Part shown: positions 28,084 to 62,436 of the stretch, one piece after another
Layout: each line of letters begins with the position of its first letter
How positions within the stretch are numbered: position 1 is the stretch's first letter
The notes under the pieces: model-generated
Databases searched by the model: none
Told to the model about the DNA's origin: nothing
What the model saw: only the letters and a program-made list of their open reading frames with translations
From: Idiomarinaceae bacterium HL-53
GTDB lineage: Bacteria; Pseudomonadota; Gammaproteobacteria; Enterobacterales; Alteromonadaceae
Assembly (NCBI GenBank): GCA_001458075.1
Contig: LN899469.1
Coordinates: 558,001-622,000 of the forward strand
Direction of reading: 5' to 3'
DNA: 64,000 bases
Program-made: the position numbers and the translations under genes

Positions 28084-28767
28084 ATGTATCAGCAAGTTCG
28101 AAAAATAAAACCCACTAGACGAAGCATTTCTGGTGTATATCCCTTTCGAGGAGAAGTCTCGATTCCTTTTGAATCGTCTTTGGAGCGTGACTTCATCATT
28201 CTTCAAGAAGCGAATCCCCGAGTAAGCCGGATTGTTGCACAACCCGTTGAGCTGAGTTATCGCAACAGCCAAAATCGTGCATACCGTTACACTCCGGACT
28301 TTCTTGTTTATAGAGACAATTGCTTCCCTCATGATAGCGACCATCAATGGAAACCGATGCTTGTGGAAGTAAAGCCTTTAGAAGAGCTGAGAAAAAGCTT
28401 TAGTAAACTCAAACCTAAGTTTCAGTCTGCATTTGCATTTGCCCGCTCTGAAGGATTTCTCTTTCATGTGTTCGATGAACGGCGCATTCGAACGACTAAG
28501 TTAGAGAACCTTAATTTTCTTAACCGATATAAACGATTTCCTTTTGACCAATACGACACCGAAGAGCTCGAGCTCCTGCTTTCGAGAGTTGAAGTCTTAG
28601 GTCAATGCACAATCGATAACCTAGTGACCTCACTTTATAAATCAGACAAAATGAAACTACAGACACTCGCTCAAGTCTGGCACCTGATTTCGGTGAGTAC
28701 GCTCGCTTGTGACCTCTCATTGCCACTCAACTGGCAAACTGAAGTATGGATTAACGAATATGAGTAA
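28084..28767 (+). CDS. tnsA: TnsA-type transposon endonuclease
   Basis: A 227-residue PD-(D/E)xK endonuclease that makes the 5'-strand cuts at transposon ends, so allowing cut-and-paste rather than replicative transposition. The catalytic residues can be read as Glu in FESSLERDF (about residue 32), Asp in YRYTPDFLVY (about 75) and LVEVKP (E-x-K, about 95). A TnsA C-terminal domain, which contacts TnsC in Tn7, would occupy the remaining 120 residues. The ATG lies 5 bp inside the last end repeat. Its stop overlaps the tnsB start by 8 bp. Confidence 0.9.
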   Translation: MYQQVRKIKPTRRSISGVYPFRGEVSIPFESSLERDFIILQEANPRVSRIVAQPVELSYRNSQNRAYRYTPDFLVYRDNCFPHDSDHQWKPMLVEVKPLEELRKSFSKLKPKFQSAFAFARSEGFLFHVFDERRIRTTKLENLNFLNRYKRFPFDQYDTEELELLLSRVEVLGQCTIDNLVTSLYKSDKMKLQTLAQVWHLISVSTLACDLSLPLNWQTEVWINEYE

Positions 28768-30712: not shown

Positions 30713-30728
30713 AGCTAAAGAGCAGCCA

Positions 30729-32701: not shown

Positions 32702-34121
32702 TCGAACTGGAAAGCTCTATTGTGATGAGTGCGGCAAAAATGTAACCGAATTTAAACGCCGTATTGGTGAGCATAGATTTTGCGACGCGTGCTATGTTCG
32801 AATTTTTGAAAAGCGAACTTGCCAGAATTGCAATTCTCAATTCAGAGAGCATCCTACATCAAACGCTAGCTACTGCCGACGATGCCGACCTAAATTCTCA
32901 CCTTGTGTTCGATGCGGTCGGCTTGATTATAAAGTAAATAAGCTCACTCCCTATGGCGCAGTATGCCATTCTTGTTATCAGTACTTCGTCACACACACAC
33001 CATGCACAGAGTGCGGTAATTCACTCAAGCGCACATCGCGTTACCTCAGCTTGAAAGCATTCGAACCCTTGTGTGACCTTTGTGCAGAAAAGCGTTTTGA
33101 TACATGCTCTAACTGCGGCCGAAGAAGACATCCTTTAACGCAAATCTTAGAAGAAAAGTTATGTCGAAAATGCTTCACTTCAAAAACAACAATCTGCAGG
33201 ATTTGCTCGACTCCATATCCTTCTGGTCATGGCTCACAATGCCGAAATTGCACTTTCACGTTAAGCGTTGAGAGGAAATTACCAATAGATATCGCACTGT
33301 TCGAGCACCCCTATACGCAAGAGTATTACAAAAAATTCGCCTACTGGCTCATTAAAGAAACATCAGCGTCCAATGCGGCCACAAAGCTTCACAGTTATAT
33401 AAGTATGTTCAAAGCCATCGACTCAAACCCTACCGCATGGAACGTTGATGTAAAAACACTCTCTTTAATCGATAAAGCGCAGCTGCGTAAAGACAGTCTC
33501 GTCCTTAGATATTTTAACTACCGCTGTATTTCAATTCCGACAGAGCTTTTACGGGACGTCTCAATGCAGAGAGTTATTTCAAAGTGTGTAAACCACTTTC
33601 AAAATCCTAACATCCCAAATTCAGTTATCTTTAAAGGCTATGCATCTGAAGTTCTTCAAAAGTGTGAGCAAGGTGAAATTAAAATATCTTCAACCAAGCA
33701 ATCGTTGAGCACGGCCAACTCGTTGCTCCAATATTTGATAAAGACAAAATCATTTATCTCTAACGCAAGCATTCGAAAATTTTTGGCTCAGCATCCTGGG
33801 CAAAGAGCATCAATAACTGGCTTTGTGAACTATTGCCATGAGCACTACGATCTAGAAGAGCTCGAGCTACCACAAAAACCGAAATTAAATGCAAAGGCAG
33901 TCGTGAAGCTTTATTTAAAGAATCACCTGTTTACAAAAGCACCATCAATTCAAGAGATACGAGCCTTCATGGTCTTTTGTCACAATGCCCCAGTCGACAT
34001 GGTGGAGCAATTAACAATGAAGCATGTACTTGTAGCAAGTTCATCTTTTTTGAGCGTGCAGATTGATGGGAAGCTATACCAAGTTGATCTGAGCCAACTC
34101 AAAAACGTATCCTTGATGTAG
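32691..34121 (+). CDS. Multi-zinc-ribbon protein, fifth gene of the tns operon (TniE position)
   Basis: A 476-residue protein starting at a GTG that overlaps the tniQ stop by 11 bp. The first 195 residues hold at least six CxxC pairs in tandem (CDECGK, CDACY, CQNCN, CRRCR, CVRCGR, CHSCY, CTECGN, CDLCAE, CSNCGR, CRKCF, CRICS, CRNCT), i.e. about six zinc ribbons in a row. The rest is helical and resembles the core-binding part of tyrosine recombinases (YYKKFAYWLIKETSASNAATKLHSY), but I see no R..HxxR..Y catalytic set. In comM elements of the Tn6022 type a fifth transposition gene of unknown role (tniE) has this position; equivalence is inferred from order. Confidence 0.65.
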   Translation: MKDNRTGKLYCDECGKNVTEFKRRIGEHRFCDACYVRIFEKRTCQNCNSQFREHPTSNASYCRRCRPKFSPCVRCGRLDYKVNKLTPYGAVCHSCYQYFVTHTPCTECGNSLKRTSRYLSLKAFEPLCDLCAEKRFDTCSNCGRRRHPLTQILEEKLCRKCFTSKTTICRICSTPYPSGHGSQCRNCTFTLSVERKLPIDIALFEHPYTQEYYKKFAYWLIKETSASNAATKLHSYISMFKAIDSNPTAWNVDVKTLSLIDKAQLRKDSLVLRYFNYRCISIPTELLRDVSMQRVISKCVNHFQNPNIPNSVIFKGYASEVLQKCEQGEIKISSTKQSLSTANSLLQYLIKTKSFISNASIRKFLAQHPGQRASITGFVNYCHEHYDLEELELPQKPKLNAKAVVKLYLKNHLFTKAPSIQEIRAFMVFCHNAPVDMVEQLTMKHVLVASSSFLSVQIDGKLYQVDLSQLKNVSLM

Positions 34122-40575: not shown

Positions 40576-41286
40576 CTAATATTTCAGATATAGCCTTTCA
40601 TTTAAATAATGCTCTATAGCATCCAAAATTCCATCAACAAAAATTATAGCCTGATCGTACATATCGTATAATTCGTCAATGGATATTTCTTGCCCACACT
40701 CTTCAAAGGAAATCTTTCCATGAGCTAGTTCATTACGTTTTCTCTTTATCATTAGCAAACTACGCCCACCCCGACTTCCTTGAATGGCCTCTTCTGATAT
40801 CACAAATCCGTATTTTTCTGCCATATCTCTAACTTTTTTTGCGTCTATGTTACCACTGAAAATCTTTTCGCCATCATATCCTAGCCATACTATCGCATGT
40901 TCAATTGACTCTTGAGATAAGATGTGACTTTCTTTAGTTAAGGCATTACGGAAATTCTTCAATGCAATCCGTTGCATTTTCTGAGTCAAATCATGGAAAC
41001 TAGTTTTTTCTTTCCTAATATGCTCATGAATAGAGTCAATAGCGTTTGTCATTGAGCACTCAATGAGATTATATAAGAGCAAATAGGTAGACGCCGATAA
41101 CGTTTTTATTAAGCCTCTGTCGAACGAAATCAAACTACTTGAATTAACATTGCTACCTTCTTCTGTGAAAGTGAGAAGCGTTGACTTTGTCTCAATAGCT
41201 TTCTTGATGAAACTCAGCTGACGCTCAATCTCAATTTTCCTTTCTTTTACAACGTCCCTAGTTTCCGCCAGAAAATTATGTCTCAC
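40576..41286 (-). CDS. HEPN-domain protein (MAE_28990/MAE_18760 type)
   Basis: A 236-residue helical protein. The N-terminus (NFLAETRDVVKERKIEIERQLSFIKKAIE) and C-terminal KRKRNELAHGKISFEECG...DELYDMYDQAIIFVDGILDAIEHYL carry the HEPN RNase motif R-x4-6-H (RNELAH). Proteins of this kind are classed as HEPN nucleases in defence islands. Its GTG start lies 15 bp after the DUF262 stop, which makes co-translation likely. Predicted role: RNA cleavage on activation; inferred from motif and context. Confidence 0.75.
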   Translation of the reverse strand: MRHNFLAETRDVVKERKIEIERQLSFIKKAIETKSTLLTFTEEGSNVNSSSLISFDRGLIKTLSASTYLLLYNLIECSMTNAIDSIHEHIRKEKTSFHDLTQKMQRIALKNFRNALTKESHILSQESIEHAIVWLGYDGEKIFSGNIDAKKVRDMAEKYGFVISEEAIQGSRGGRSLLMIKRKRNELAHGKISFEECGQEISIDELYDMYDQAIIFVDGILDAIEHYLNERLYLKY

Positions 41287-41301
41287 GAGTTGACAGCCCT
41301 G

Positions 41302-42465
41302 TTAATCGAAGAATGAATGTTGAGGAGCATCTAGATCTCGTGAGTCGGAAAATATTTTATCTGGATCACCCTCCAGCTCCACATCTCTTTCTAAAAGGTT
41401 GTCTCTCACAAAATGAATTCTGTTCCTAACCTTAACTCTGGAGTTGCTCGCGTCAGAGCGAGTGAGATGTCCAAATTCTTTTGAATAGAGCCATTCCACA
41501 TTGGTTGGACATAAGTCAGGACTTTCCTTGAGAGCCAGAGCAGCACCAACAGCCATACATTCAAACCTAATCCGAGGAACTGACTTGTTTGATGCGTTTT
41601 TTCGGAAGCCGTATTGAAATGTCTTTTTGATGAATCGCAACATCTCATGAAATGTATTCTTATAATATTGCTCGTCAAAACCGCTTTCGTTCCGATTTTT
41701 TAGGTATTCTTCCAGAAACTCGTCTACTCGATGATCAAAGGCCATATAATTCTCAAAGTAAGCAAAGAAGCGGAGGACGAATTCTTCCCTTTCTCGACGA
41801 ATCTTCTTAGCACTACTAATTGGGCAAAGCTCAATAAATACAGGAGTTTGAGCCAATTCCTTTATAAGGTTTACAAACTCTCCGTCATTCGTTCCCATCA
41901 TCTGCTCCATGGGCTTGAGGACCATGCCACCGGTATTTAGTCGGTCAAACATTTCTCTTCGTGCTTCCTCATCCATGTTGTGCGTAAGCTCGATCAGCCG
42001 GATTGTTTTACGTTTTACTCGCCTCTGCCGTCCTTGCGAAAGATTGGAAAATCTAAAACCATTCATTTTAGTAAGCTGCTTCAAGTCCACTAGCTGTAGT
42101 TGGTCTAACATGAATCGTTGTAAGGTCCTCATCCGCTGAGCGCCGTCCACGATTTCTGCACGTCCGTCATTCTCACCACCTTTAACCTCAGCTATAAAAA
42201 TGTACGGTATAGGTAGGTTCATAAGGACTGATTCGATGAATCTTGACTGCCGCTTTTCATCCCAAACGAGTTCTCGTTGATAGTCTGGTATGAAGAAGTC
42301 AGCTTCGTCATTACCTGCACTGTCCGTGAATTTATCTACAAGAACTTCAACAGGGTACTCCCTGATATCGTAGTCAGCAATTTTTTGACGTTCTTCTAAC
42401 TGAGCTTCCGCGTCTCGTTGAAGTTGTTCATCACCAAAGTTCAGAGTGTTGCTTGATTTCGCCAT
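41302..42465 (-). CDS. DUF262 (ParB/GmrS-like) protein
   Basis: A 387-residue protein. The DUF262 core is clear: FFIPDYQRELVWDEKRQSRFIESVLMNLPIPYIFI followed by AEIVDGAQRMRTLQRF (DGxQR nucleotide-handling motif, about residues 45-120). DUF262 proteins such as GmrS/SspE-type N-domains use NTPs and act in restriction of modified DNA. No DUF1524 (HNH) domain follows; the nuclease functions may be supplied by the HEPN and HNH genes downstream. Start at 42465 (MAKSSNTLN) is supported by GGAAAGG. It is divergent from the methyltransferase gene with a 185-bp shared promoter region. Confidence 0.85.
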   Translation of the reverse strand: MAKSSNTLNFGDEQLQRDAEAQLEERQKIADYDIREYPVEVLVDKFTDSAGNDEADFFIPDYQRELVWDEKRQSRFIESVLMNLPIPYIFIAEVKGGENDGRAEIVDGAQRMRTLQRFMLDQLQLVDLKQLTKMNGFRFSNLSQGRQRRVKRKTIRLIELTHNMDEEARREMFDRLNTGGMVLKPMEQMMGTNDGEFVNLIKELAQTPVFIELCPISSAKKIRREREEFVLRFFAYFENYMAFDHRVDEFLEEYLKNRNESGFDEQYYKNTFHEMLRFIKKTFQYGFRKNASNKSVPRIRFECMAVGAALALKESPDLCPTNVEWLYSKEFGHLTRSDASNSRVKVRNRIHFVRDNLLERDVELEGDPDKIFSDSRDLDAPQHSFFD

Positions 42466-42650
42466 AGATACCTTTCCAAGAACTAATTCAATTACATACA
42501 TCCAGATGGTATAGAATTGGAATAGCCTTGGCTATTCAAAAACCCTAAATAGGTTATCTCGGACGGAAAAATGTCACGTCGGTACTCGATTTATTTTTTA
42601 GTTTGAATTAACATTACAACATAGGCTTTGATTAGGATGGCGCTAGTTAC

Positions 42651-43691
42651 ATGACAAAAATTGTTGGCGTAGACCTCTTTTGCGGTGCAGGGGGATTGAC
42701 TAGGGGTCTATTAGATTCGGGAATCCTCGTATCAGCAGGTCTGGACATTGAGCCCAATTGCAAGTATGCATACGAGTCGAACAATGGCTCAAAGTTTCAT
42801 AGCAGGGATATTACTACAGTTACGAGTGAAGAGCTTAACTCTATGTACACGGATGGCGACGTAAGACTTCTCGCTGGCTGTGCCCCTTGCCAACCTTTTT
42901 CAACCTACTCTCAAGGTCGAGACGTCCAAAAGGACAAAAAGTGGCCCTTGTTGTATGCTTTCGCAAGATTGATCGGCGAAACCGAACCTCATTTGGTTAC
43001 GATGGAAAATGTTCCAGATGTATCTAAACATAAGGTCTATCACGATTTCGTCGAAACTCTAAAAAGTCAAGGATACCATGTGTGGGCCGACTCGGTTTAT
43101 TGCCCAGATTACGGGATTCCACAGACTCGTCGACGCCATGTTTTGTTGGCATCTAAACTTGGACCCATAAGCTTAATCCCAAAAACTCACGCGCCAGAGA
43201 ATTACATCACTGTCAAACAAGTGTTATCCCCAAAAAAGCTTCCAAAACTAAAAGCAGGCAGCGAGGCCAAAAGTGATCGTCTCCACAAAGCCGCAGGCCT
43301 CTCTATGCTCAACATGAAAAGAATGAAAGCTTCTAAACCTGGTGGCTCATGGAGAGACTGGCCTGAGAACCTTATAGCCGAATGCCACAAAAAGCCAAGT
43401 GGGAAAACATACTCTGGCGTTTATTCAAGAATGCGCTGGGACGCACCCGCTCCAACGATCACAACTCAGTTTTTTGGATTCGGAAATGGCCGCTTTGGGC
43501 ACCCCGAAGAAAACAGAGCCATATCGTTAAGGGAAGGTGCAATTTTACAGACGTTCCCAGAGTCGTATGAATTTGTAGAAAAAGCTAGTCCGATACAAAT
43601 TAGTACCGTAGGAAAGATGATTGGTAACGCAGTTCCCCCCAAATTAGGGAGCATTATTGGCCAATCTTTTATTACTCATATTCTTAAATAG
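42651..43691 (+). CDS. DNA (cytosine-5)-methyltransferase
   Basis: A 346-residue C5-methyltransferase with motif I VDLFCGAGGLTRGL, motif IV GCAPCQPFSTYSQ (catalytic Cys), motif VI TMENVPDV, motif VIII QTRRRHVLLA and motif X IGNAVPPKLG, so it appears intact and active. Target recognition sequence cannot be predicted. It is divergent from the DUF262-HEPN-HNH genes and converges on the GHKL-TIR gene (27 bp), with no ordinary type II restriction enzyme alongside. Confidence 0.94.
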   Translation: MTKIVGVDLFCGAGGLTRGLLDSGILVSAGLDIEPNCKYAYESNNGSKFHSRDITTVTSEELNSMYTDGDVRLLAGCAPCQPFSTYSQGRDVQKDKKWPLLYAFARLIGETEPHLVTMENVPDVSKHKVYHDFVETLKSQGYHVWADSVYCPDYGIPQTRRRHVLLASKLGPISLIPKTHAPENYITVKQVLSPKKLPKLKAGSEAKSDRLHKAAGLSMLNMKRMKASKPGGSWRDWPENLIAECHKKPSGKTYSGVYSRMRWDAPAPTITTQFFGFGNGRFGHPEENRAISLREGAILQTFPESYEFVEKASPIQISTVGKMIGNAVPPKLGSIIGQSFITHILK

Positions 43692-44212
43692 TTAGGACTA
43701 ATTATTGCTTGTATTCTATCAGGCTATTAGAACCCGTCTTCTAATTTCTCTTAGCACATCGTCTTTTGGTTGCGAATTAAATGAAAGTTGTGTGCAAGCA
43801 TAAATTAACTTATCAGCTATAATATCCAACTCCATCTGGTTTAATCTGATATTACCTTCTTCAAAAGCCATGTTCGCCCATGGCGAATCAACATCTAATG
43901 GTTTGCGAGGATTAAAATTATTAATATTGAAAATATCATGCTGATTTTGTGTTATCCACCCAGCGCCCACTTCTGAAACAGCAGGCCAACTTCCTCCCAT
44001 CTCCTCACTGGTAACGTAGATAACATAAATCTTCTCATCAGAATAGCTATTAACAAAAAATTCACGCAGATAATCAAAAATATCTTGTTTTTGCGGAATC
44101 CGGGAATCCCCACTGTTGGAGGAAGTATAAATAATAGCATCTCCCGGCACGCCGGTATATACAAGCATGTCGTAAATGAAATCACAAACTGCCTTGTTAC
44201 CATAGCTGTGAC

Positions 44213-44216
44213 TAAT
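44213..44216. repeat. TAAT target duplication of the inserted IS (left copy)
   Basis: TAAT precedes the left end at 44217 and is repeated at 45415-45418 after the right end. Four-bp duplications fit the IS407 subgroup. Confidence 0.9.
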
Positions 44217-44290
44217 TGACCTTTCCCCCAAGAATAGAACCATGACATCGATGAGATTTCCATTAAAATGGGTCAAGTGGAGATCTCAAA

Positions 44291-44554
44291 ATGAAAAAAC
44301 GTTACAGCGAAGAACAAATCATTAAGGCCATCAAAGAGCATGAGGCCGGTGCCAAGGTTGAGGACATTTGTCGGCGCCTTGGCGTATCGAATGGCACTTT
44401 CTACAACTGGCGCAGTAAATATGCGGGTATGGAAGTTAATGAAGCGAAGCGTTTGCGCGAGCTTGAAGCCGAAAACACCAAGCTGAAGAAACTCCTTGCA
44501 GAGAAGATGCTTGAGACGGAAGCCTTAAAGGACGTCGTCTCAAAAAAGTGGTAA
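44291..44554 (+). CDS. IS3-family OrfA (IS407 type)
   Basis: An 87-residue helix-turn-helix and leucine-zipper protein: RYSEEQIIKAIKEHEAGAKV...VSNGTFYNWRSKYAGM and RELEAENTKLKKLLAEKMLE. It ends SKKW-stop, and an A6G heptamer at 44542-44548, positioned as A AAA AAG in this frame, allows a -1 shift into OrfB. Confidence 0.93.
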   Translation: MKKRYSEEQIIKAIKEHEAGAKVEDICRRLGVSNGTFYNWRSKYAGMEVNEAKRLRELEAENTKLKKLLAEKMLETEALKDVVSKKW

Positions 44555-45366
44555 AGCCCGCCAGCAAGAAGCATGTGGTCACGCATTTAGTGACCACGTT
44601 TAAGCTTAGTGAGCGCCTTGCGTGCAAGTTGGTCGGGCTGAGTCGAACCGCTTATCGATATCAGCCTAAAAAGCGCCAGGATGAGCCTGTCACGGCTCGT
44701 TTGAAGGAGCTGGCCGTCGAGTACCCGCGGTACGGGTACTTGATGCTACACGGCCTTCTGAAGCGCGAAGGATTAGTTAAAAACAAGAAGCGGACTTATC
44801 GTTTGTACACGGAGCAAGGGCTCCAAGTTCGCACGAAGAAACGGAAAAAGCTGACACGCCCACGCGTCGTCATGGATGCTCCAACAGCGGTGAATCAACG
44901 TTGGTCCATGGATTTCGTTTCCGACCAACTAGCCAATGGACGCCGCTTTCGAGTGTTAAACATTGTTGATGACTTTAGCCGCGAAGTCGTTGGCCAACTG
45001 GTTTCAGTGTCAATCTCAGGCCAGCAAGTCGCACGGTTTTTATCTCAGATAATAGAGACTCGCGACAGACCAGACTCGATTGTTTGCGACAACGGCACCG
45101 AGTTTACCAGCAAGGCGATGTTTTTCTGGAGTAAGACCAAAGGCGTTCGCCTGAGCTTTATTCAGCCAGGAAAGCCGACACAGAATGCGTTTGTGGAAAG
45201 CCTAAACGGCAAATTCAGGAACGAGTGTTTGAATCAGCACTGGTTCCGCACTTTGGACGAAGCACGTTACGACATTAAGCAGTGGCAGCGCCATTACAAT
45301 GAGGAAAGACCTCACAGTTCACTGAATTATTTACCGCCAGCTGAATATGCAAAACAGGTGGCATAA
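44548..45366 (+). CDS. IS3-family OrfB transposase (IS407 type)
   Basis: A 272-residue frame with the DDE integrase core: WSMDFVSDQLANGRRFRVLNIVDD (Asp), IVCDNGTEFTS (Asp) and NAFVESLNGKFRNECL (Glu), followed by HYNEERPHSSLNYLPPAEYA. It begins at GTG exactly at the slippery site, so it is normally made as an OrfAB fusion by -1 frameshifting. All catalytic residues are present, so the element should be able to move. Confidence 0.94.
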   Translation: MVKPASKKHVVTHLVTTFKLSERLACKLVGLSRTAYRYQPKKRQDEPVTARLKELAVEYPRYGYLMLHGLLKREGLVKNKKRTYRLYTEQGLQVRTKKRKKLTRPRVVMDAPTAVNQRWSMDFVSDQLANGRRFRVLNIVDDFSREVVGQLVSVSISGQQVARFLSQIIETRDRPDSIVCDNGTEFTSKAMFFWSKTKGVRLSFIQPGKPTQNAFVESLNGKFRNECLNQHWFRTLDEARYDIKQWQRHYNEERPHSSLNYLPPAEYAKQVA

Positions 45367-47009
45367 AAACTGAAATCTCATTGAAAATGTGGTGTTATTT
45401 CAGGGGAAAGGTCATAATCAGTAGTTTCTTTTTATTATTATCAATCGACCTCTTTATTCCCAAGTTCGGTAACGTTTTATTAATTACAGATTTGACTATA
45501 CTTTGAAGATCCTCAGAATCCCTGCTAACCGATTGCAGTATTTCTTTCGCAGCATCAGCTGAAGCATCGCTTTTGAACTTTTCAATTTGCTCCTTAAATT
45601 TCTTCTCTCTTTCTTTATTCTTTTTATGATTCTCTTCATCTTTCTTGCTTTTCTTATAAGCTGAATACTTAGCCCTCAAAGAAATAACGAGAGGAAGAAG
45701 CTCTTCTCTAATGTACTTAGTTGCAACTTCATACCTTTTGTCATCACTCTTATACCCTTGGCGATTGCTTAAAGCCATATCTGGAAGCATCGTCTCTTCA
45801 AACAAATCTATATGCAGCTGGCCTACAACGTAAACCTCATTGAGGGCGTTTTTACCAACTAGGGGAAGAATGTTAAACTCTCCCATTTTATTGTTTGCCA
45901 AAATAGATATAAAATTATCAGGGAAGTCCGTTTGATCTAGTTTTTTTCCTCGTGATGATCTATAAGCCCCTATCCAGCCCTTTATTTCTAGCTCAAAAGT
46001 CCTTTTCTCTCCATCTCTATCAACTAACTTTAGCTTCTCTAAAAACGGCTGCTTCCTCAAGTGCAATTTATCTTCATCATCAGCTGGCAATTTAAGTTGG
46101 CTATCGAAGTTGTCATGTAAAAATGAGAATTTCTCACCAAGGGTTACTAGACCTCCTAGCCCTTGAATTATTTCTCTTTCAAATGAGTCAATAACTTCTG
46201 TTTTATTACCGATTTGTAGATGAATACGGAAATCTTCATTTACTAGAGGAAATATTTTTAAAAGATTGTTCTTTGCAGCCTTCAAAGTTTTGTGAAGTTT
46301 GTATTGAGGAGCCTTCATTACAATAGAGGTTCCTTGTTCTCTCACGCGCAAAAAATTAATATTATCTTCATCTATGGCTTTCAGCTTATGGTCATCATTG
46401 ACCCTTCTTGACAGAATAAATCCGGATCTATCCCCATCTTTTATTGTTTTTACTTCAACATTTTCCGATACGGACAAGGCAGCTAATTTACCTACCCCTT
46501 TTCGTCCCATTTTCCTCCGTTTCCTATCGCTACCAGAAACGAAAGATTCTTCATCATTAGTTCGGCTTTCTTGAGCAATATTGAGGAATTTTTTAACTCC
46601 AACTTCATATGACATGCCGTGGCCATCATCTTCTACGGTAATGGAGTTATTGTCCGAAATTATGTAGACGTTCTTTGCATTAGCATCGTATGCGTTAGCC
46701 ACTAGTTCAGCTAAAACGTAGTAGATATTCGTATAAAGATTAGGACCAAGCAGTTCAAGAATTCTTGGGTCAATGTTAATTTCATATTCTTTGTGAGCCA
46801 TTCTAGCTTCTCGCAGTCTAGTTTACTCTGTAAAATAAACGATTTAACCAACAAATAAAACCTACTTTCAATGTCAGTTGCTTAAGCTATGCGCCGCATG
46901 GCAAAATTCAGACAAAAAACTAGCTAAACCTCTGTTTCACACAGTGTAAAACCTACGTCATGCTCGCTTCACAAGATTTCGATGAGAGTTCACAGTCCAT
47001 CGCTTAATA

Positions 47010-51026: not shown

Positions 51027-52286
51027 CTAATATAGCCGAGAGTACAAAATCGCCGCTGCGACAGCTACTACCACACTTGACACAGCTCTATTAATATATT
51101 TCCTGCCGTCATAAAGAGCTTCGGATTTCGCAGGGTCATCAACAACTTTGTAATACTCAATATTGGCTCTATAAATTGCTGCACAAGTTACAATAATCAA
51201 TATAGGTAAACTATAACCAAAGCTCTTACCAATTTCGAATTTATGCTCATCAGGAAATGTCATCAATAGCCTCGGAACTCCGAAAATGAAAGCAAGAATC
51301 AGACCTATCCAGATTTTAGATTTGGACTTTGCTTGGTTGATTAATTCCTGACGCTTCCTAATTTCGGAGGACTGAGAGTTAAAAGATTCTTTTATATTAT
51401 CTAACAGAAATACCTGGGTTTCGAATTCCTTTTCCGTTAAATAATCACTGTTTCTCAGAGCAATCAAGAGTGATTTAGAGTAAGCCAATATTCCGCTAGT
51501 ATTATTTGTGGGATGTTCTTTCTTATCTACTTTCTGTATACGTCCAAGATTCGTCAATTCCCTCTTTAGCTGGCAAACCAATTTTAGAGCAATTTCTTTC
51601 TTAGCTGCGTTTTCAAGATTAACGATAGTCGTGAGAGAGTCTTGAGTATCTTCATGATGGCGGTGATTATGCACACTGTATTTTAAATAATAGAAAGCTT
51701 GTCTCGCAAAAACAAATTTCGTTCTAGCATCTATTGGCGAGCAGCTTTCTAGTAATTTCAGAAAAGTTAAGCCATTTGGCTCCATTTTAAACTTAAGGCT
51801 GCAAGTTAAATTTTTCTTCTCAAGACCATCTATTTTAGAGGGCGCACTCACCAGTTCATGCAGCCGAACAAAGCTATTTTTGGATTTTTCCTTCTGAATC
51901 TGGTGCGAAAACTCGTGGATGGGCATGCTTCTGACTGCTTCAATATCGCTAGGCTCATTCTCAAGTGGGTATATTAATATACTCCCACTTAGAAATCTCT
52001 CATCCATATCATCAGAGTTATTAACTGTGGCTGTTACAAATACGCGGAAGAAGCCGTCAATTTTTTCGTATTCTAAACTGTCTCTCCAATCAACTTTAGA
52101 TTGGAGAACAATCAAACGGGCATGGTGATCAACTAATTCACAGCTAGAAAAGTTTTCTTCAATTGTTTTTAGATCGGGTAATGTATTTCCACCATTAAAT
52201 GTCCCCTTGATCCCAACACGAGTCAAACCGAAGTCAAGATGTCCATTTAGGCAGGGCGTCCAGCCAATATATTCAAATTTTTCCAT
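51027..52286 (-). CDS. Membrane-anchored protein of unknown function
   Basis: A 419-residue protein: about 320 soluble, charged residues followed by three C-terminal membrane helices (IWIGLILAFIFGVPRLLM, FGYSLPILIIVTCAAIYRANI, SSVVVAVAAAILYSRL). A helical, Lys/Glu-rich section precedes the first helix. I do not recognise it. The ATG at 52286 has no clear ribosome site, and a terminator-like hairpin sits only 10 bp upstream, so its expression may be unusual or the start may lie further in. Confidence 0.5.
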   Translation of the reverse strand: MEKFEYIGWTPCLNGHLDFGLTRVGIKGTFNGGNTLPDLKTIEENFSSCELVDHHARLIVLQSKVDWRDSLEYEKIDGFFRVFVTATVNNSDDMDERFLSGSILIYPLENEPSDIEAVRSMPIHEFSHQIQKEKSKNSFVRLHELVSAPSKIDGLEKKNLTCSLKFKMEPNGLTFLKLLESCSPIDARTKFVFARQAFYYLKYSVHNHRHHEDTQDSLTTIVNLENAAKKEIALKLVCQLKRELTNLGRIQKVDKKEHPTNNTSGILAYSKSLLIALRNSDYLTEKEFETQVFLLDNIKESFNSQSSEIRKRQELINQAKSKSKIWIGLILAFIFGVPRLLMTFPDEHKFEIGKSFGYSLPILIIVTCAAIYRANIEYYKVVDDPAKSEALYDGRKYINRAVSSVVVAVAAAILYSRLY

Positions 52287-53088: not shown

Positions 53089-53423
53089 CTACGTGTAGTT
53101 ACGAAACTGGCGTTTATCGGGCGAGCGTTTGTGCTGATTTCGGACGCTTTTAATTTCCTCAAGCAAAGAGTCTTCACCGGCAAACTCTCGCTTCTCTTCA
53201 TAGGGAGCCCATTCGGTTACAAATAGCGCTCGAATACCAAGGGAAGATGGTTTACAAATACAATTGCATCCTCTAATTTGAGTCGCCTTCTAAAAGATTC
53301 TAGAACCCCTACAACCATATTCCAAGCCATATTTGTGGTTTGTAGATCTGCCGCATCTCTTGCATCAATCATGAAATTTTCGAATTGCTCAGTCGCATGA
53401 TAGTAATTTCTCGGTACCGGCAC
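53089..53423 (-). pseudogene. DUF2267-like protein with a frameshift
   Basis: The first frame reads EQFENFMIDARDAADLQTTNMAWNMVVGVLESFRRRLKLEDAIVFVNHLP and then closes at a TAA near 53,217. A neighbouring frame continues at the same point as GIRALFVTEWAPYEEKREFAGEDSLLEEI and ends at the TAG at 53,089. Together these match the DUF2267 pattern (A..AL..VL..LRDRL...A..L..QLP...R..y.egW.P), so one frameshift near 53,240 has broken the gene. DUF2267 proteins are of unknown function. Confidence 0.65.
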
Positions 53424-53630
53424 TTACGTCACCACTTCACTGAAGCTGCTACTGTTAAAACCAATCTCTGAACTGCAAGTTCTTGTTAATGATAATAGAT
53501 TATTCACCCAAGACTAACTGGGGTAAGGCTGCTAGAAAAAGCCTTAATGATAGCGACGTTATAGCACTGTTGTTGCCGTTCCAGCATAATAGTTCTAAGG
53601 TATCAGTGTGTTTTCTTGGGGAATAGACGA

Positions 53631-54044
53631 ATGAGTTACGCTATGAGTATAAATCCGATAGTGTTCAATGAGCGCAACAACGCTTACACATTGAACGATG
53701 ACCAAGTGGCAATTTCCCAGTTTAAACACATTCTTGAGGAGTGGAACGTTGAGTCTGAGCTTTGGGCAAACATCCTAGAAGGCATTTCAATTCAAACGAT
53801 AGAAGCTCCAGAGCAAGAGCTCGACCAACGGTTAACGCCAGACCAACGAGAGCGTCTCTTTCTAGTTGCAAGTTACGATGACGCATTAAAAGCTCTTTTT
53901 CTCCAAGAGCAGCACCGCAGAGAATGGATACATAACAAGCACAAATCACTTGATGGTTATTCGCCTTTAGACATTTTGACGTGCGGCTCGCTACTTGCGA
54001 TGTATGAACTCAATGACTATCTACAAGGACTTGTTCGTTCTTGA
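53631..54044 (+). CDS. ParS/MbcA/Xre-type antitoxin-like protein (DUF2384 end)
   Basis: A 137-residue helical protein. The C-terminal segment REWIHNKHKSLDGYSPLDILTCGSLLAMYELNDYLQGLV resembles the toxin-binding domain of ParS/MbcA antitoxins (N..LGGxTPLELL...G...V...L). Those antitoxins pair with RES toxins; a RES gene is present at 55,463-56,917 but not adjacent. The ATG at 53631 has GGGGAA upstream; an in-frame TTG at 53616 does not. Confidence 0.5.
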   Translation: MSYAMSINPIVFNERNNAYTLNDDQVAISQFKHILEEWNVESELWANILEGISIQTIEAPEQELDQRLTPDQRERLFLVASYDDALKALFLQEQHRREWIHNKHKSLDGYSPLDILTCGSLLAMYELNDYLQGLVRS

Positions 54045-54072
54045 TTTGCCCAATTCAACCTAAGGCATTTGT

Positions 54073-54321
54073 ATGAAGAAGGAAATGAACCAGGCAACAA
54101 CCGTTGTAGAAGATATTATTTGCGATATCTGCGGCGAAAGCGTCATACCTAGTGAAATAAAGAAGCATATTAAGAACGCCAACAACTTTTCTGACTATGC
54201 CAAGCTCACGGCATCGTTTGGCTACGGCTCAAAACGTGACGGTGGGATCTTCAATTTCGATTTCTGTGAGCCATGTTTCGAAGTGATTGAGACGAAAGTG
54301 AGAGAGTCACAAGGTAAATGA
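54073..54321 (+). CDS. Small CxxC zinc-binding protein
   Basis: An 82-residue protein with CDICGESV and FDFCEPCFEVIE, i.e. two CxxC pairs framing a conserved-looking YGSKRDGGIFNFDF. It follows the ParS-like gene by 28 bp on the same strand. The pattern is familiar from many unnamed small bacterial proteins; function unknown. Confidence 0.6.
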   Translation: MKKEMNQATTVVEDIICDICGESVIPSEIKKHIKNANNFSDYAKLTASFGYGSKRDGGIFNFDFCEPCFEVIETKVRESQGK

Positions 54322-54487
54322 ATGGGGATACAAAAGCTAAGCAAAAAAGAAAGAGGTATAAATCAGCGATAGCTTACACGTTATCCTGTTGAGCGACGTC
54401 TGCATTTGCAATAGGCTTTAATAGCCACCGATGCCGCGCACGTTAATTCGCTGGCAGACGAACCCAAATTTAAGCAATGGAGGCTGT

Positions 54488-54670
54488 ATGTTAATTCTAA
54501 CAAGACGAATCGGCGAAACATTAATCGTGGGTGATGACATCACCGTCACTATTCTGGGTATTAAAGGAAATCAAGTGCGCGTAGGCATTAATGCACCAAA
54601 CGATGTGTCTGTGCATCGTGAAGAGATATACACCCAAATTAGCAACGAAGAGTCTGAAAAGGCAGGTTAG
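54488..54670 (+). CDS. csrA: CsrA/RsmA-type translational regulator
   Basis: A 60-residue protein, [34 protein letters not shown] and onward, with [14 protein letters not shown]; Leu4 and Arg44, the RNA-binding residues, are present. CsrA binds GGA motifs in mRNA leaders and controls metabolism, motility and mobile-element functions. The true start is the ATG at 54488, after a GGAGG site; the frame is open to 54431. It is cargo of the transposon and distinct from the host's chromosomal copy, which is outside this window. Confidence 0.94.
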
Positions 54671-54832
54671 ATTGTATTGAGCTTCAAATCAAAAAACCCG
54701 TTGAAACTTATTTAATAGAAAATCCCTTTCTAATCGAAGACTTAGAAGTTGCATATTGGGGCGGATTTTAGTCAGAGAAGTTGGCTAGAGCCTGCTAGTA
54801 ATCGCTTTATCCGTGTTGATGTGGTTTCGTGG

Positions 54833-55096
54833 TTATATCTGACTTTGACTAACGACAAATTTCTTGAGTAAGTGGCGCACTAAAGCTTGATGCGAAACCT
54901 GATTACAATCAGCAATAAATCTCAGTTCTGATAGCAATTCATCTTCGAGGCGAAGAGAAACAGTTGTGAGCCGACAAGCTTCATTCAGCGCATCTTCAAT
55001 CTCGTCTGATGCTTCAACCACCCCGACATATTCTTCGGACGCCCCAAGCTCTCGATTATCCCACTTAATGCTCGAGCTACCTGATTTTCTTTTCAT
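54833..55096 (-). CDS. Ribbon-helix-helix (CopG-type) antitoxin-like protein
   Basis: An 87-residue protein. TTVSLRLEDELLSELRFIADCNQVSHQALVRHLLKKFV is a ribbon-helix-helix DNA-binding domain, following an acidic arm with WDNRELGASEEYV. The layout matches CopG-family antitoxins, but no toxin gene is directly beside it. The start at 55096 (MKRKSG) has a GGAG at good spacing. Confidence 0.65.
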   Translation of the reverse strand: MKRKSGSSSIKWDNRELGASEEYVGVVEASDEIEDALNEACRLTTVSLRLEDELLSELRFIADCNQVSHQALVRHLLKKFVVSQSQI

Positions 55097-55462
55097 CACG
55101 CAATCTCCACAAAAAAGCCTTCTCAATTAGCCTTATTCAGAAAGTATAGCTCTCCACTAGTTAAGCATGAAGATTTTTGTTGTCGCGTTCCAGCTAGTTC
55201 TTATTCCTTTTATTGGGCATGGCGAACCTGATCATGATTAGTTGATACACTACCGGTCATCGAACCGAAATAAATATTCAACGTAAACATAACGGCCACT
55301 AACATTTTATTTAGTTCTAATCTTTCACAATAATTGAGGCATTAGTAATGTTTTAGTTTTTAGTTCCATCATTCAGCTCGGGAAAAAACAGAAAGAATGA
55401 TTGATTTTCGGAGTCAAGAGTCGCGATCGTATGCGGCGGTATGTCTCTGACCAATCCACACA
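55097..55462. other. No supported gene (366 bp)
   Basis: AT-rich sequence between the ribbon-helix-helix gene and the RES gene. A 24-codon frame with a signal-like start (near 55,168) exists but is too short to support. Nothing else is seen. Confidence 0.4.
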
Positions 55463-56917
55463 TCATTTCTTGACCACTGCACTCGCGCGATCAGTTTTAG
55501 AAAGCGGAAAATTAAAGGACACATCATGCAATTCCAATTGATGCTGAACACTCTCAATAATTGCAACTTGCAACGAATCAATATCTAGCTCCAAAATACC
55601 TTGCTCTACCTCTGTGTTTAGGCCTAATGAAGAAACAATATTTGAAGGTATTGAAGTTTCATCTTGTTCAGGATCTCGGTCAACCTTAGAGTCTCTGAAA
55701 ACAGAATAATCCTGCTCCCAATCGTCATGTACTTGATAAACTGAAGCCCATAAAGAATAGTCTTGAAGCGCTCTAAGTTTTTTTACCACTGAAACCTTGT
55801 GAAATAATACGACATTTACTCCTTTGTGAGAAGATTGTGCAGAAGGAAACATAATGCCATCAATAAAGGGCTCGAACTGTTCAGCTAGATAATCTCCTAT
55901 AACTTGTGTTGGAATGTAATCGATTTCTTCGTCATCAGGCATTATAGGTCTAGTCAAACGCCCAGCAAGGGTTTTAAGAAACTCAGCGCGCTCTAACCTA
56001 TTTGCGAAATCCGAGTCAAATACGCTACCGGTCTCGTGGATAGTCTCAAGAGCAGTCAAATCAAGTAACTTAAGATTTCGCGAAATGGTAAATTTACCGA
56101 CTAACACTTGAGCTCTGACGGGAGGACGAACTTCATCAATTGCCACATTCAGGTTGGTCGCACCATAAAATACGGTTATTCCTCTCGCATTCATCCTTCC
56201 AGCTCTCGCTATAGGGGAAGGTGGGGGGCCGAGGTGAATGTCTGGACGACACATCGCTTCCTTTAATGCTTCCTCAGATTGGAACACTCTGGCTCTGAAT
56301 AGTGATTCACAATTAGTTTCAGGACCGACATCAATAATAAGCGATCTACCTTTAAGCGTATCTAGGCGATGAATATCCTTGAACGTATCTTTTAAAAGAT
56401 TCTCAGCACTTTTATTAAAAAATCTAGACTTAGTTTTTAATAAAGATTCGAACTTTTCCCAATCATGTTTCCAATGTGCCCCAGTAATCTTTTTCTCGAT
56501 GTACCGCGAATCCTCACTGAACTCAAGCTCTTCACCGATTTGAGCTTGTGAATGGTCGTAATTCCTTTCCTCTAGTATCTGTTGAAGAGTCAATGCGGCC
56601 TCCGGAGGCATCATCGCATATTCTTCTATTAACTCCTCAACAGACTGTCCCTCTCTCTCCCATTCATAGGCACTATCTCGATCCGCCATAAGCGCAGCTT
56701 CATATGCATCTGGTTGATCCGGCGTGCGGATGAAATGCCTCTCAAACGCGGCCTGGATGATGGCACTAAGATAGTATAAATCAATACATCGTTGCTTAGC
56801 TCCACAAAAGGAACACTCTCCATCGACTCCGCCTGATTGGATTACCGAACTCAAGTAATTTTCCTCTACACAAGCTAAACATATTTTTTTGTCTTGAATC
56901 TCTTCGGGGTCAAGCAT
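55463..56917 (-). CDS. RES-domain protein with N-terminal zinc/HEPN-like region
   Basis: A 484-residue protein. The N-terminus has CLACVEEN and CSFCGAKQRC (zinc ribbon) and then an acidic helical domain (about 45-180) like the HEPN-type N-domains found on large RES proteins. The RES domain (about 200-390) has LFRARVF, LGPPPSPIARAGRMNARGITVFYGATN and AIDEVRPPVRAQVLVG: the conserved Arg, Tyr and Glu of NAD-cleaving RES toxins. RES enzymes break NAD by phosphorolysis or hydrolysis. The zinc-HEPN-RES type is larger than the 150-residue RES of simple toxin-antitoxin pairs, and may be a self-contained defence effector. Confidence 0.8.
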   Translation of the reverse strand: MLDPEEIQDKKICLACVEENYLSSVIQSGGVDGECSFCGAKQRCIDLYYLSAIIQAAFERHFIRTPDQPDAYEAALMADRDSAYEWEREGQSVEELIEEYAMMPPEAALTLQQILEERNYDHSQAQIGEELEFSEDSRYIEKKITGAHWKHDWEKFESLLKTKSRFFNKSAENLLKDTFKDIHRLDTLKGRSLIIDVGPETNCESLFRARVFQSEEALKEAMCRPDIHLGPPPSPIARAGRMNARGITVFYGATNLNVAIDEVRPPVRAQVLVGKFTISRNLKLLDLTALETIHETGSVFDSDFANRLERAEFLKTLAGRLTRPIMPDDEEIDYIPTQVIGDYLAEQFEPFIDGIMFPSAQSSHKGVNVVLFHKVSVVKKLRALQDYSLWASVYQVHDDWEQDYSVFRDSKVDRDPEQDETSIPSNIVSSLGLNTEVEQGILELDIDSLQVAIIESVQHQLELHDVSFNFPLSKTDRASAVVKK

Positions 56918-57255: not shown

Positions 57256-57378
57256 ATGAAAAAATCACGATTTGCTGAAACACAGATAATCTCGAACTTT
57301 AAAGAATCTGATGCTGGCATTAAGGTTGAACAAATCAATTCAGGATTAGAAATTCCGAGCGTAACTTGCACGCCGTAA
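57256..57378 (+). pseudogene. OrfA remnant of an IS3-family insertion sequence
   Basis: Forty codons beginning MKKSRFAETQIISNFKESDAG and continuing IKVEQINSGLEIPSVT, matching the N-terminus of IS3-family OrfA (RF.E.QI...L.E...G..V..I....GIS..T). It then ends abruptly and the graspetide precursor follows, so almost the whole element has been lost. Confidence 0.75.
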
Positions 57379-57424
57379 TTAAAAAGTTTACGTTTAGTGC
57401 TATCGAGATAATGGAGCAAAGATT

Positions 57425-57784
57425 ATGTTGCCTTACTTAATTTCTAAAGCCACACCGTTGAAACAGGTAGCCAAGTTCCCAACGAGCGCTCGTTATGATT
57501 CTCAAAAGCAGCTTTGGATTGATTTGAAGTCTGGTCGAGCGTTAGTTGATGTAGTACTCGAAAACCGAACAAAACAGATTTCCGCATCAGATTTTGGAGA
57601 AACAGTTTGTACTAAGTCAGGTGAAGGTACAGATCAATCGGAGGTGATACAAGCATCTGATTTCGGTGAAACATTAATCACTGAAACGGGAGAGGGTACA
57701 GATCAATCAGAGATCTTATGTTCTTCAGACTTTGGCGAGACTATACAAACCAATACAGGCGAAGGTTCAGATGTCCTCTCATAA
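57425..57784 (+). CDS. Graspetide (omega-ester RiPP) precursor with three core repeats
   Basis: A 119-residue precursor. The leader (1-53) includes TSARYDSQKQLWIDLKSGRALVD, close to the ATP-grasp recognition segment of graspetide leaders (RYD...QLW.D..GR). Three core units follow at about 54-76, 77-99 and 100-119, each with SDFGET, Thr/Ser residues and a GEG(T/S)D end, 23 residues per unit. Thr/Ser hydroxyls and Glu/Asp carboxyls of such cores are joined into side-chain ester rings by ATP-grasp ligases. The ATP-grasp gene follows 12 bp later. GGAG precedes the ATG. The core motif does not match the microviridin TxKYPSD pattern, so the ring topology is probably different. Confidence 0.85.
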   Translation: MLPYLISKATPLKQVAKFPTSARYDSQKQLWIDLKSGRALVDVVLENRTKQISASDFGETVCTKSGEGTDQSEVIQASDFGETLITETGEGTDQSEILCSSDFGETIQTNTGEGSDVLS

Positions 57785-57796
57785 GTTGACGCATGC

Positions 57797-58735
57797 ATGC
57801 TACTGATAATAACAAATTCAGATGACGTTTCAGTCGATTACTTGATACGACATCTAGATGAGAGAAATTTACCATTTTTTCGCTTTAACTCGGATTTTGC
57901 TAGCGATTATCAGATAAACGTGAGTATTGCCGGAAACGAATTTGGAGGTACGATTAGGAATAACTCTCATGAGGTAGATTTTTTGAGTGTCACCTCGGTT
58001 CTATACCGTCGGGCTATTAGGCCAGTGTTTAATGGTCCTTATAGAAATTTTCGAGCCAGAGAGTTTCGACACGCTTTCGAAGGCCTTTTATTAGCTTTGG
58101 GAGAGCGAGTTAGGTGGGTTAATCCGCTCCACGAGACCGAGTTAGCTGAAAGAAAGGTGTTGCAGCTGAGAGCTGCTCAGAAAGAAGGGTTCAATGTACT
58201 GCCTTCTGTGATATCTAATAACTTTCAAGCAGTAGAATCCTTTCTCTCCAGGTTAGGTGAAGAAGCTGTAGCTAAGCCAGTTTCGCATGGTTTAGTATTA
58301 GAGAATCAACGGGCTCATTCAGTTTATGCAACGTTGGTGGATAGTCACAAAGGCTTAGAGAGAGAGGCGGTGGAGTTATCACCAGTGATCTACCAGAAAG
58401 CTGTAGTCGATAAGAAAGACGTTCGCTTGACTGTAATAGGTTCTTCTATTTTTACGGTAAGTATAGAACAGGAAGCTGAAGCTCAGCTTGATTGGAGGAA
58501 AGAGTCTTGCCATTGTAAGTATCTGTCGATACAAGCACCTGTAGGAATTGAAAAAAAATGTCTTAGGTTAATGAAGCGTCTTGGACTGAATTACGGCGCA
58601 TTTGATTTTGTAATTGATACTAAGGGCGTTTGGTATTTTTTGGAGGTAAATCCGGCTGGAGAATGGGCTTGGTTAGACGTCGCACTAGGTTTGTCGATGC
58701 GGGACGCTTTTGAGCAGGTTCTATATGAACATTAG
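57797..58735 (+). CDS. ATP-grasp macrocyclase (MvdC/MvdD-like) of the graspetide cassette
   Basis: A 312-residue ATP-grasp ligase. The N-domain (LLIITNSDDVSVDYLIRHLDERNLPFFRFN) and the C-terminal FLEVNPAGEWAWLDVALGLSM are typical of graspetide ligases, whose end motif is usually NPxGQWxW; middle segments carry VAKPVSHG (ATP Lys) and DKKDVRLTVIG. It activates Glu/Asp side chains of the precursor as acyl phosphates for ester formation. Only one ligase is present, as expected for ester-only graspetides. Its end overlaps the next gene by 11 bp. Confidence 0.88.
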   Translation: MLLIITNSDDVSVDYLIRHLDERNLPFFRFNSDFASDYQINVSIAGNEFGGTIRNNSHEVDFLSVTSVLYRRAIRPVFNGPYRNFRAREFRHAFEGLLLALGERVRWVNPLHETELAERKVLQLRAAQKEGFNVLPSVISNNFQAVESFLSRLGEEAVAKPVSHGLVLENQRAHSVYATLVDSHKGLEREAVELSPVIYQKAVVDKKDVRLTVIGSSIFTVSIEQEAEAQLDWRKESCHCKYLSIQAPVGIEKKCLRLMKRLGLNYGAFDFVIDTKGVWYFLEVNPAGEWAWLDVALGLSMRDAFEQVLYEH

Positions 58736-59462
58736 TAGATATTTGTCGCCCAAACCCTCACGAATCCAATTTAGAGCCTTCTTATGTGGCTTCTATTCAC
58801 TTTTAAAACGAGCGTTAAAAGTATTATGGTTCCTTTTTTGCCATACCTTTAGTATTTATGATTTTAAAAATAAAGCGGAGAGTGGCATTAGCTCCAAGAA
58901 TCCGAAGGGGAAGTTTGGTAAGAAACACTTGGAGTTTGCTCAATGGACTTATCAAGACTCTCTAGAGAGAATGGAGCGGGTAGAAAGGAAAGCTTCATTG
59001 ATGCTCGCTACTTTAGGCGTTTTCAGTCCATTGCTTATTTTAATGTGGACGCAGCCATTAGAAAAAGTATCTGTAAACGGCGTTTATGAGGGGCTGTTCC
59101 AAGTACTTTTTACAGCTATTGCCTTTTTAATCGCGTTTGCGTTTATAGCATGCTTTCGTGCTCTCAGCTTTCATTCTTATAAAAAGATTGGACCAAATTT
59201 TTTGATTGATGAAGACTCAGAGAAAGTAATTCATAGAGATTTGGACTCGTTAGTTCGCATTAGACTTTATGAGGCGCTTGAGAAAAATGCAGTTGTTGAT
59301 CATATTGCAGATTTTGTTCGAGCAGCTCAATTATATCTAGTGTTGAGCGCCTTATGTCTACTTGTACTGTCTGTAATAGGTGTTTTTGGTATGTTCTCAG
59401 GCGAAGTTCATGAGGATGTCTCTAGTCCAACAGTTATAATAGTCCCCGTGACGAAAATTTAA
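58725..59462 (+). CDS. Membrane protein coupled to the graspetide genes
   Basis: A 245-residue protein starting at an ATG inside the end of the ATP-grasp gene. After a basic N-terminus and a coiled-coil-like stretch (QDSLERMERVERKAS) come membrane helices ASLMLATLGVFSPLLILMW, LFQVLFTAIAFLIAFAFIACF and LYLVLSALCLLVLSVIGVFGMF. The helix-start KASLMLATLG recalls the membrane effectors of Pycsar/CBASS-like systems, but the call is uncertain; it could instead be a transporter part or an immunity protein for the peptide. Tight coupling shows it belongs with the cassette. Confidence 0.6.
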   Translation: MNISRYLSPKPSRIQFRAFLCGFYSLLKRALKVLWFLFCHTFSIYDFKNKAESGISSKNPKGKFGKKHLEFAQWTYQDSLERMERVERKASLMLATLGVFSPLLILMWTQPLEKVSVNGVYEGLFQVLFTAIAFLIAFAFIACFRALSFHSYKKIGPNFLIDEDSEKVIHRDLDSLVRIRLYEALEKNAVVDHIADFVRAAQLYLVLSALCLLVLSVIGVFGMFSGEVHEDVSSPTVIIVPVTKI

Positions 59463-60755: not shown

Positions 60756-61091
60756 ATGAAAGATGCCAACAATGTAGCAAGTCTTGATATTGCGCGAGCT
60801 AAGCACATTAGTACCGCTACTCGTATTACAGAACTGAACATTGATCATCTTGAATACTATAAAGCGGACCTAAAAAGCCGATTAATGATTTTCATTCATG
60901 ATAAAATAAAACATCTAAAGCAAGAAGAAGCAGCCAAACTTCTTGACATAACGCAAGCGCGCGTCAGCCTGATTAAAAATCAACGACTAAGCCAATTTAG
61001 TGTTGACCGCTTAATCGAGCTTACATATAAAGTTGGCTATGTGTTGGATGTAACACCGATTGCTTTACCGCATCTCAAAGCACTGAAATGA
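60756..61091 (+). CDS. HTH (Xre-type) regulator or antitoxin
   Basis: A 111-residue protein with the helix-turn-helix HLKQEEAAKLLDITQARVSLIKNQRLSQFSVDRLIELTYKVG (about residues 53-94), the arrangement of HigA-2/Xre antitoxins, followed by a short C-terminal tail. GAGAGGA precedes the ATG. No intact toxin is beside it, so it may be an orphan antitoxin or a transposon regulator. Confidence 0.75.
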   Translation: MKDANNVASLDIARAKHISTATRITELNIDHLEYYKADLKSRLMIFIHDKIKHLKQEEAAKLLDITQARVSLIKNQRLSQFSVDRLIELTYKVGYVLDVTPIALPHLKALK

Positions 61092-62431: not shown

Positions 62432-62436
62432 GCCCC
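62432..62436. repeat. Target-site duplication (GCCCC), distal copy
   Basis: Identical to 27,939-27,943, directly after the last base of the transposon end. Confidence 0.93.

Follow-up and report, generated by a model that had tools for sequence, protein, structure and literature searches.

Does a large RES-domain protein need an antitoxin, and is a ParS-like gene that lies near it the partner? The question arises in a stretch of 64,000 nucleotides (nt) of Idiomarinaceae bacterium HL-53 (contig LN899469.1, positions 558,001 to 622,000; hereafter the window). There, a gene for a zinc-bearing RES protein of 484 amino acids (aa) occupies 55463-56917 on the minus strand, and a gene for an orphan ParS/Xre-like protein of 137 aa occupies 53631-54044 on the plus strand, with its ATG at 53631. 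The two open reading frames (ORFs) are convergent, with 1,418 nt between their 3′ ends and three small genes in between. An earlier note on this DNA had given their positions, opposite strands and 1.4-kb spacing correctly. It had read them as a toxin and its antitoxin separated by unrelated genes, and had added that the large RES type may need no antitoxin. We favor, with a probability of roughly one half, the reading that the RES protein is a single-gene, abortive-infection-like effector carried by a Tn6022-type Tn7-like transposon.

The first scan of genome contigs, with the RES protein as a single query, found no relatives. A profile scan of genome contigs with an alignment (A1) confirmed 135 relatives, and 80 were kept. 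The source genomes of 45 of these 80 loci had 103 matches to PF08808 (RES) and 59 to PF09722 (ParS), and in them we compared long RES genes (open frame of at least 460 aa) with short ones (at most 285 aa), the classes being defined after inspection of the list. A ParS domain lay within 500 nt of none of the 44 long genes but of 35 of the 48 short genes (Fisher test, 1.1e-14, for loci that are related and hence not independent). Within 5 kb, one of the 44 long genes had a ParS match, and this lone case (L062) was a short C-terminal ParS fragment. Genes of middle length, placed in neither class, had ParS within 500 nt in 3 of 11 cases; a broken long copy in G179, with a 309-aa frame, was counted among them.

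PF09722 may miss ParS proteins as divergent as that of the window, so we added a search with a ParS-family profile, for which the 7 plus-strand sequences among 13 served as training set. The profile detected the window gene and all eight control RES-Xre loci, two of them weakly (E 1.5e-4 and 0.03); six of the eight control loci were in genomes from the same search that had supplied the training set. Across 86 long-RES loci it found only one fragment of 68 aa, in L062. When genes up to 5 kb around these 86 loci and in the transposon of the window were clustered, RES was present in 87 of 87 loci and the next three clusters in 6 each, so that no conserved partner gene was found. A co-directional neighbor within 100 nt was absent in 37 of 60 loci, these 60 being the loci, among 71, where both neighbors were readable; L096 was later dropped, as its neighbor coordinates and lengths were identical to those of L094. 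Within 900 nt of long RES genes we found 79 small ORFs, from 47 of 70 loci, while the other 23 loci had none. They matched 11 Pfam families, with no family matched by more than two ORFs, and none matched Xre/ParS or CopG.

Some observations count against autonomy. The remaining 23 of the 60 loci did have a co-directional neighbor within 100 nt. Up to five of the 79 small ORFs were of toxin-antitoxin type (two PIN, one Rv0623-like, that is, VapB-like, one ParE and one ParE-like). An antitoxin could also be encoded elsewhere in the genome. Nevertheless, the autonomy of long RES genes from a linked antitoxin is well supported, and the suggestion that the large type may do without one held up.

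The RES ORF starts with ATG, and AAAGGA lies immediately 5′ of it. The protein consists of a zinc ribbon (residues ~11-40), a helical NTD1 domain (~31-185), a RES domain of the ADP-ribosyltransferase (ART) type (~190-458) and a variable tail. The match to the RES family is far beyond chance (PF08808, 68.9 bits, E 6.4e-19, cut-off 23.2). HEPN_RES_NTD1 (PF18870), the sole N-terminal Pfam match at E ≤ 1, scored 27.3 bits, just under its cut-off of 27.4; in the genomes of the relatives, it was matched in 38 of 45 at E ≤ 0.001 and in 26 of 45 above the cut-off. The zinc-ribbon cysteines C13, C16, C35 and C38 were present in all 84 aligned rows, from which six ORFs without the Cys4 pattern had been removed beforehand. 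In a set of 77 rows with one of the six (L080) restored, C13, C35 and C38 were invariant and C16 was conserved in at least 90%. This conservation indicates that the predicted N-terminal Cys4 zinc ribbon is real. Cysteine conservation, together with the order of elements in an AlphaFold 2 (AF2) model, gave the order zinc ribbon, helical domain and C-terminal RES domain.

The label zinc-HEPN-RES given earlier was right about the zinc ribbon and RES and wrong about HEPN. We rejected the HEPN reading of the N-terminal domain: no true HEPN model matched at E ≤ 1, and the match was to NTD1 only. The ribonuclease motif of HEPN domains is R-x4-6-H. In the RES protein, the conserved H61 and R165 lie outside any motif of this form. 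Anantharaman et al. (2013, PMC3710099) described HEPN/RES-NTD1 as spanning about 100 aa, being mostly helical and occurring in fusions with HEPN (the MAE_28990 group) or with RES. The label is wrong because NTD1 joins HEPN or RES effectors alternatively and is not itself a HEPN domain. Some of the NTD1-RES fusions in that paper bear an extra N-terminal zinc ribbon, in the identical order to that found here, so that the architecture, zinc ribbon, NTD1 and RES, is a prediction already printed in 2013. The available part of that paper mentions NTD1-RES in a table entry and one sentence, within its account of abortive-infection proteins whose N-terminal domains are exchangeable, and predicts RES to be an RNase. 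Relative to that part, the absence of a linked antitoxin, the distribution and the transposon context are added here.

The catalytic half of the protein looks intact in sequence and in its predicted fold. In alignments of 77 and 71 rows, R208, R210, R241, Y251, E262 and N368 were invariant and S359 was conserved in at least 90%. The active-site residues named for NatT of Pseudomonas aeruginosa, R23, R82, Y93, S184 and N193 (PMC11535050), could be matched to conserved RES residues by motif, not by computed superposition. The AF2 model, built from 71 rows, had a mean pLDDT of 88.6 and a pTM of 0.83. Its top structural match, among 765 chains re-aligned with VIA-align, was NatT (8qnq; Z 9.7 over 170 residues, 3.6 Å), followed by diphtheria toxin (Z up to 8.9), ParT (8.7), VPA0770 (8.2) and RES-Pp (8.0); NatT and diphtheria toxin are tied, with a Z gap of less than 1. 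Against kinship by fold, a Foldseek search with the full AF2 model returned nothing at E ≤ 0.001, and a Z near 8 is possible without kinship. Neither phmmer nor profile searches started from the RES protein detected any RES relative among Protein Data Bank sequences. For the N-terminal model, Foldseek returned nothing at E ≤ 0.001, and VIA-align gave many winged-helix proteins, whose Z scores of 3.2-5.2 over residues ~46-139 were too weak for use. The RES protein had no match in PADLOC at E ≤ 0.1 or in PHROGs at 1e-5.

We propose the following mechanism. The zinc ribbon and NTD1 would form a module for sensing or restraint, and the RES domain, with its ADP-ribosyltransferase fold, would be the effector. 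An infection signal received by the N-terminal part would lead the RES domain to cleave NAD+, most likely by phosphorolysis as in NatT and MbcT. The NAD pool of the cell would then drop, and growth would halt before the phage could spread. Restraint would be intramolecular and would require neither ParS nor CopG nor another antitoxin, and the ParS-like protein would be an orphan of antitoxin type in a separate cargo block. The proposal in the earlier note of a stand-alone NAD-depleting defense protein is plausible in this light, as it fits the genomic context and the apparently intact RES fold and residues, with NAD use, toxicity and phage defense as predicted properties.

NAD depletion is the uncertain step, because the chemistry of RES proteins varies (PMC12457610). 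The RES domain might instead modify one particular macromolecule, in the way that ParT ADP-ribosylates Prs, or make a nucleotide signal, and still serve as an effector in defense or stress. The differing chemistry of RES homologs (PMC12457610) is consistent with this, as is the presence of ParT and diphtheria toxin among the structural neighbors, the latter tied with NatT. Moreover, NatT R186 sits at the active-site phosphate (PMC11535050), and its apparent counterpart here, judged by motif, is the invariant Q361. As the best structural match, NatT, is an NAD(P)+ phosphorylase (PMC11535050), we consider this alternative unlikely, though the strongest of those weighed here.

The 80 relatives kept span many phyla, among them Pseudomonadota, Bacteroidota, Nitrospirota, Myxococcota and Planctomycetota, and include one methanogen bin. 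The methanogen sequence was sister to a Pseudacidovorax sequence (support 100/99) and stands on a 3.9-kb contig of its bin; it may be a binning error. On a tree of 71 proteins, Pseudomonadota required 11 changes, at least five of them forced by well-supported branches; more than one change on the tree is no proof of transfer. Matches to the RES protein were found in 783 plasmid records, with at least 80% of the query covered in 220. In many Klebsiella plasmid records among the matches listed, the RES homolog was in two pieces, that is, a broken copy. Viral contigs contained 16 loci; the piece with L162 also has a tail-fiber-like gene.

The genes next to long RES matched many models of defense systems. 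At E ≤ 1e-10, the flanks of 59 long-RES loci, represented by 118 proteins, matched 187 PADLOC models, and 113 control proteins matched 7, where models and not proteins are counted. The controls were taken from 19 regions chosen at random in the genomes of these loci, leaving aside the single ORF sampled in control region L138. Among the matches listed, the models matched by flanking proteins included Gabija, Septu, DRT-associated and Old.

Several points count against the favored reading. The 187 models overlap heavily, many of them being GajB. The most flanking proteins that any model matched was 3 of 118, compared with 4 of 113 controls for mad3, and as many as 11 of the 113 control proteins may have been matched in all. 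The enrichment of defense genes around long RES is thus a hint from tallies of models, with no enrichment established per protein. Several flanking genes were of a type found in integrative and conjugative elements (ICEs) or plasmids (ArdC-type, 6 of 118), and mobile-element cargo alone could suffice to explain the context. On the tree, phyla were more clustered than shuffled labels.

The frequency on plasmids and the nearness to ICE-type genes would also suit a toxin that stabilizes mobile elements or causes addiction to them and that is held in check by an unrecognized or distant antitoxin, either protein or RNA. No linked gene was conserved in the 87 loci, and no Pfam family recurred more than twice among the 79 small ORFs, in a scan of protein-coding ORFs. 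We therefore regard an addiction toxin as improbable.

The vehicle of the RES gene was delimited by its ends, its target-site duplication and the reading frame of its target gene. It is a Tn7-like transposon of the Tn6022 type, 34,488 bp in length (27944-62431), inserted in comM. The sequence GCCCC is duplicated at its left (27939-27943) and right (62432-62436) ends. Its termini match (TGTGANATACAGAA), and both ends carry repeats resembling TnsB sites. Joining the flanks restored an uninterrupted comM frame of 511 aa, and the G+C content was 41.4% in the transposon, compared with 48.3% in the remaining window. An empty comM site across the junction was found in 6 of 16 congeners (G001, G003, G004, G007, G014 and G015), and in G008 by a 54-nt match; among the others, G016 had both halves apart, G006 had the left half only, and seven had no match.

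The transposition genes (28084-34121, plus strand), assigned by Pfam, start at 28084 (TnsA), 28709 (TnsB-like), 30693 (TniB/TnsC), 31577 (TniQ) and 32691 (a 476-aa protein). The fifth gene overlaps the end of tniQ, and its sole Pfam match at E ≤ 0.001 was a zinc finger; its position suggests that it is TnsF. Tn6022-like elements, as described in the available part of PMC10293859, target comM via TnsF. The element of the window has the same TnsA, TnsB, TniB/TnsC and TniQ, the same comM insertion and a target-site duplication, and differs in its cargo and in that its fifth gene is a putative TnsF.

Other cargo of defense type lies at 40576-46801: a MAE_28990-like HEPN protein, a GmrSD N-terminal domain, a C5 DNA methylase, an ATPase with HATPase_c_3 and a transposase (rve, HTH_21). 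The C5 methylase cluster was also found near long RES in L057, L088 and L089. The RES protein itself had no match in any of the 16 congeners, and its matches in seven other relatives were all at most 34% identical.

The protein might also be an NAD enzyme with a metabolic or regulatory, non-toxic function, carried as neutral cargo, given that hosts tolerate its intact long ORF. The catalytic residues are conserved, and the N-terminal domain fused to them is otherwise found on HEPN effectors (PMC3710099). The patchy distribution among congeners and the defense-type genes in the same transposon fit a gene of conflict better, and neutral cargo appears quite improbable to us.

The identity of the ParS-like gene was supported in part. 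Its product aligns end to end with its relatives, and an ortholog in L029 with 87% identity passes the PF20432 cut-off (27.0 vs 25.8), whereas its own matches are below every curated cut-off (PF20432, 20.4 vs 25.8; PF09722, 15.7 vs 24.5; NF049845, 34.5 vs 90; TIGR02293, 24.9 vs 57). Matches to it were found in 13 of 145 genomes: its own, three of the same genus and nine of the same family. The nine family homologs, at 22-30% identity, each had a RES match 196-244 nt away, and the open frames of these matches measured 225-340 aa; reading of six loci showed partner RES proteins of 225-238 aa. The three congeners, G016 (87% identity), G013 (65%) and G011 (a distant homolog), had no RES match anywhere in their genomes.

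The ParS-like gene belongs to a block of its own. The next gene (54073-54321, plus strand) encodes a Cys-rich protein of 82 aa, possibly zinc-binding and conserved beside the ParS-like gene. It is followed by a gene for a CsrA paralog of 60 aa (54488-54670, plus strand; NF002469, 108.8 bits, cut-off 73). The DNA of the whole block in G016 (L029) is 86% identical to the window. There, comM is interrupted at the same position by a different insertion, about 24.8 kb long, which contains the block, has no RES gene and otherwise carries genes that we read from their ORFs as type III restriction-like and KAP-like. In G013 (L030), the ParS-like and Cys-rich genes are retained near a comM fragment. 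The Cys-rich protein was 82-85% identical beside the ParS-like orthologs in L029 and L030, and in L031 a 55% identical one lay about 6.5 kb from a distant ParS homolog; across the genus, its gene was commoner than the ParS-like gene. The CsrA paralog was 87% identical in L029 and was not found in L030. Because the ParS block recurs without RES, and the RES protein has no match in the 16 congeners, we treat the two genes as separate cargo, and the idea of a pair split by unrelated genes was not supported.

That the ParS-like protein nevertheless serves the large RES as its cognate antitoxin, working in trans after insertions split the pair, is very improbable: it is the sole match to itself as query in its genome, the large RES is the sole RES match there, only 1.4 kb away, and nine distant homologs adjoin RES genes, but its homologs in G016, G013 and G011 persist without any RES, the block in G016 sits in a comM element without RES, long RES genes elsewhere have no linked ParS, and the RES partners of its relatives that were read are unlike the 484-aa type. 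We therefore rejected it as the RES partner. The small CopG-type protein was correctly placed between the two genes (54833-55096, minus strand; PF12441, 21.9 bits, cut-off 28), where the Cys-rich and CsrA genes had gone unmentioned. It was also rejected as a partner, as it was no conserved neighbor in the 87 loci and had no counterpart among the 79 small ORFs.

The block shared with G016 (window 53116-54764) has an orphan antitoxin gene without a RES toxin and is possibly an anti-addiction or regulatory module. At 53217-53423 (minus strand), an apparent DUF2267 gene start ends early; a longer version of 141 aa occupies the corresponding position in L029 (PF10025, 45 bits). Upstream of the RES gene, at 57258-57379, a short fragment resembles the start of a transposase gene, which we take to be of the IS3 type. 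Divergent from the RES gene, the transposon carries a graspetide-like pair (57425-58735, plus strand), in which the precursor has three SDFGET...GEG(T/S)D repeats and the enzyme is an MvdD-like ATP-grasp protein (TIGR04187, 238 bits vs cut-off 350; PF21068, 48 bits vs cut-off 27). The genes at 58710-59462 (plus strand) and 51027-52286 (minus strand) had weak PADLOC matches to PycTM (E 2e-3 and 4e-3), and a gene at 60756-61091 (plus strand) encodes an HTH_37 protein (50.8 bits), presumably HigA-like.

Comparison with known systems places the single-gene reading of the RES protein among them. RES-Xre, MbcTA and ParST type II modules share its RES effector domain; the window protein is about 2-3 times longer and has no adjacent antitoxin. 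NatT, from the RES-Xre system NatR-NatT, shares the RES fold and, by motif, the active-site pattern; it is paired with NatR and controlled by a flap (PMC11535050), whereas the RES protein of the window has a fused zinc ribbon and NTD1 and no linked Xre gene. Stand-alone NADases such as DSR2-type SIR2 and SpbK-type TIR proteins resemble it in that one protein is proposed for both sensing and attack on NAD, but their catalytic folds are unrelated to RES/ART, and here the NAD activity is a prediction. As far as the available part of PMC11535050 goes, the NAD-targeting immunity known so far relies on TIR and SIR2, and no RES toxin-antitoxin system had been implicated in immunity. A table in PMC8649781 tallies 95 RES genes on Tn7-like transposons as toxin-antitoxin. 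Among the papers listed in our literature searches, which included few from subscription journals, we found no experiment on any protein of zinc ribbon, NTD1 and RES.

Tentatively, these proteins may represent a widespread family of one-gene immune systems, in which RES would be a third NAD-attacking fold beside TIR and SIR2, and in which a sensor at the N-terminus of the toxin itself, rather than Xre, would restrain it. RES proteins would then be under two regimes of control, the short ones controlled by a partner and the long ones by themselves. A large class of RES proteins, present in many phyla and without linked antitoxins, breaks with the habit of classing RES as part of a toxin-antitoxin system. 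The division is clean, with long RES alone and short RES paired, and it makes a role of RES in phage defense directly testable.

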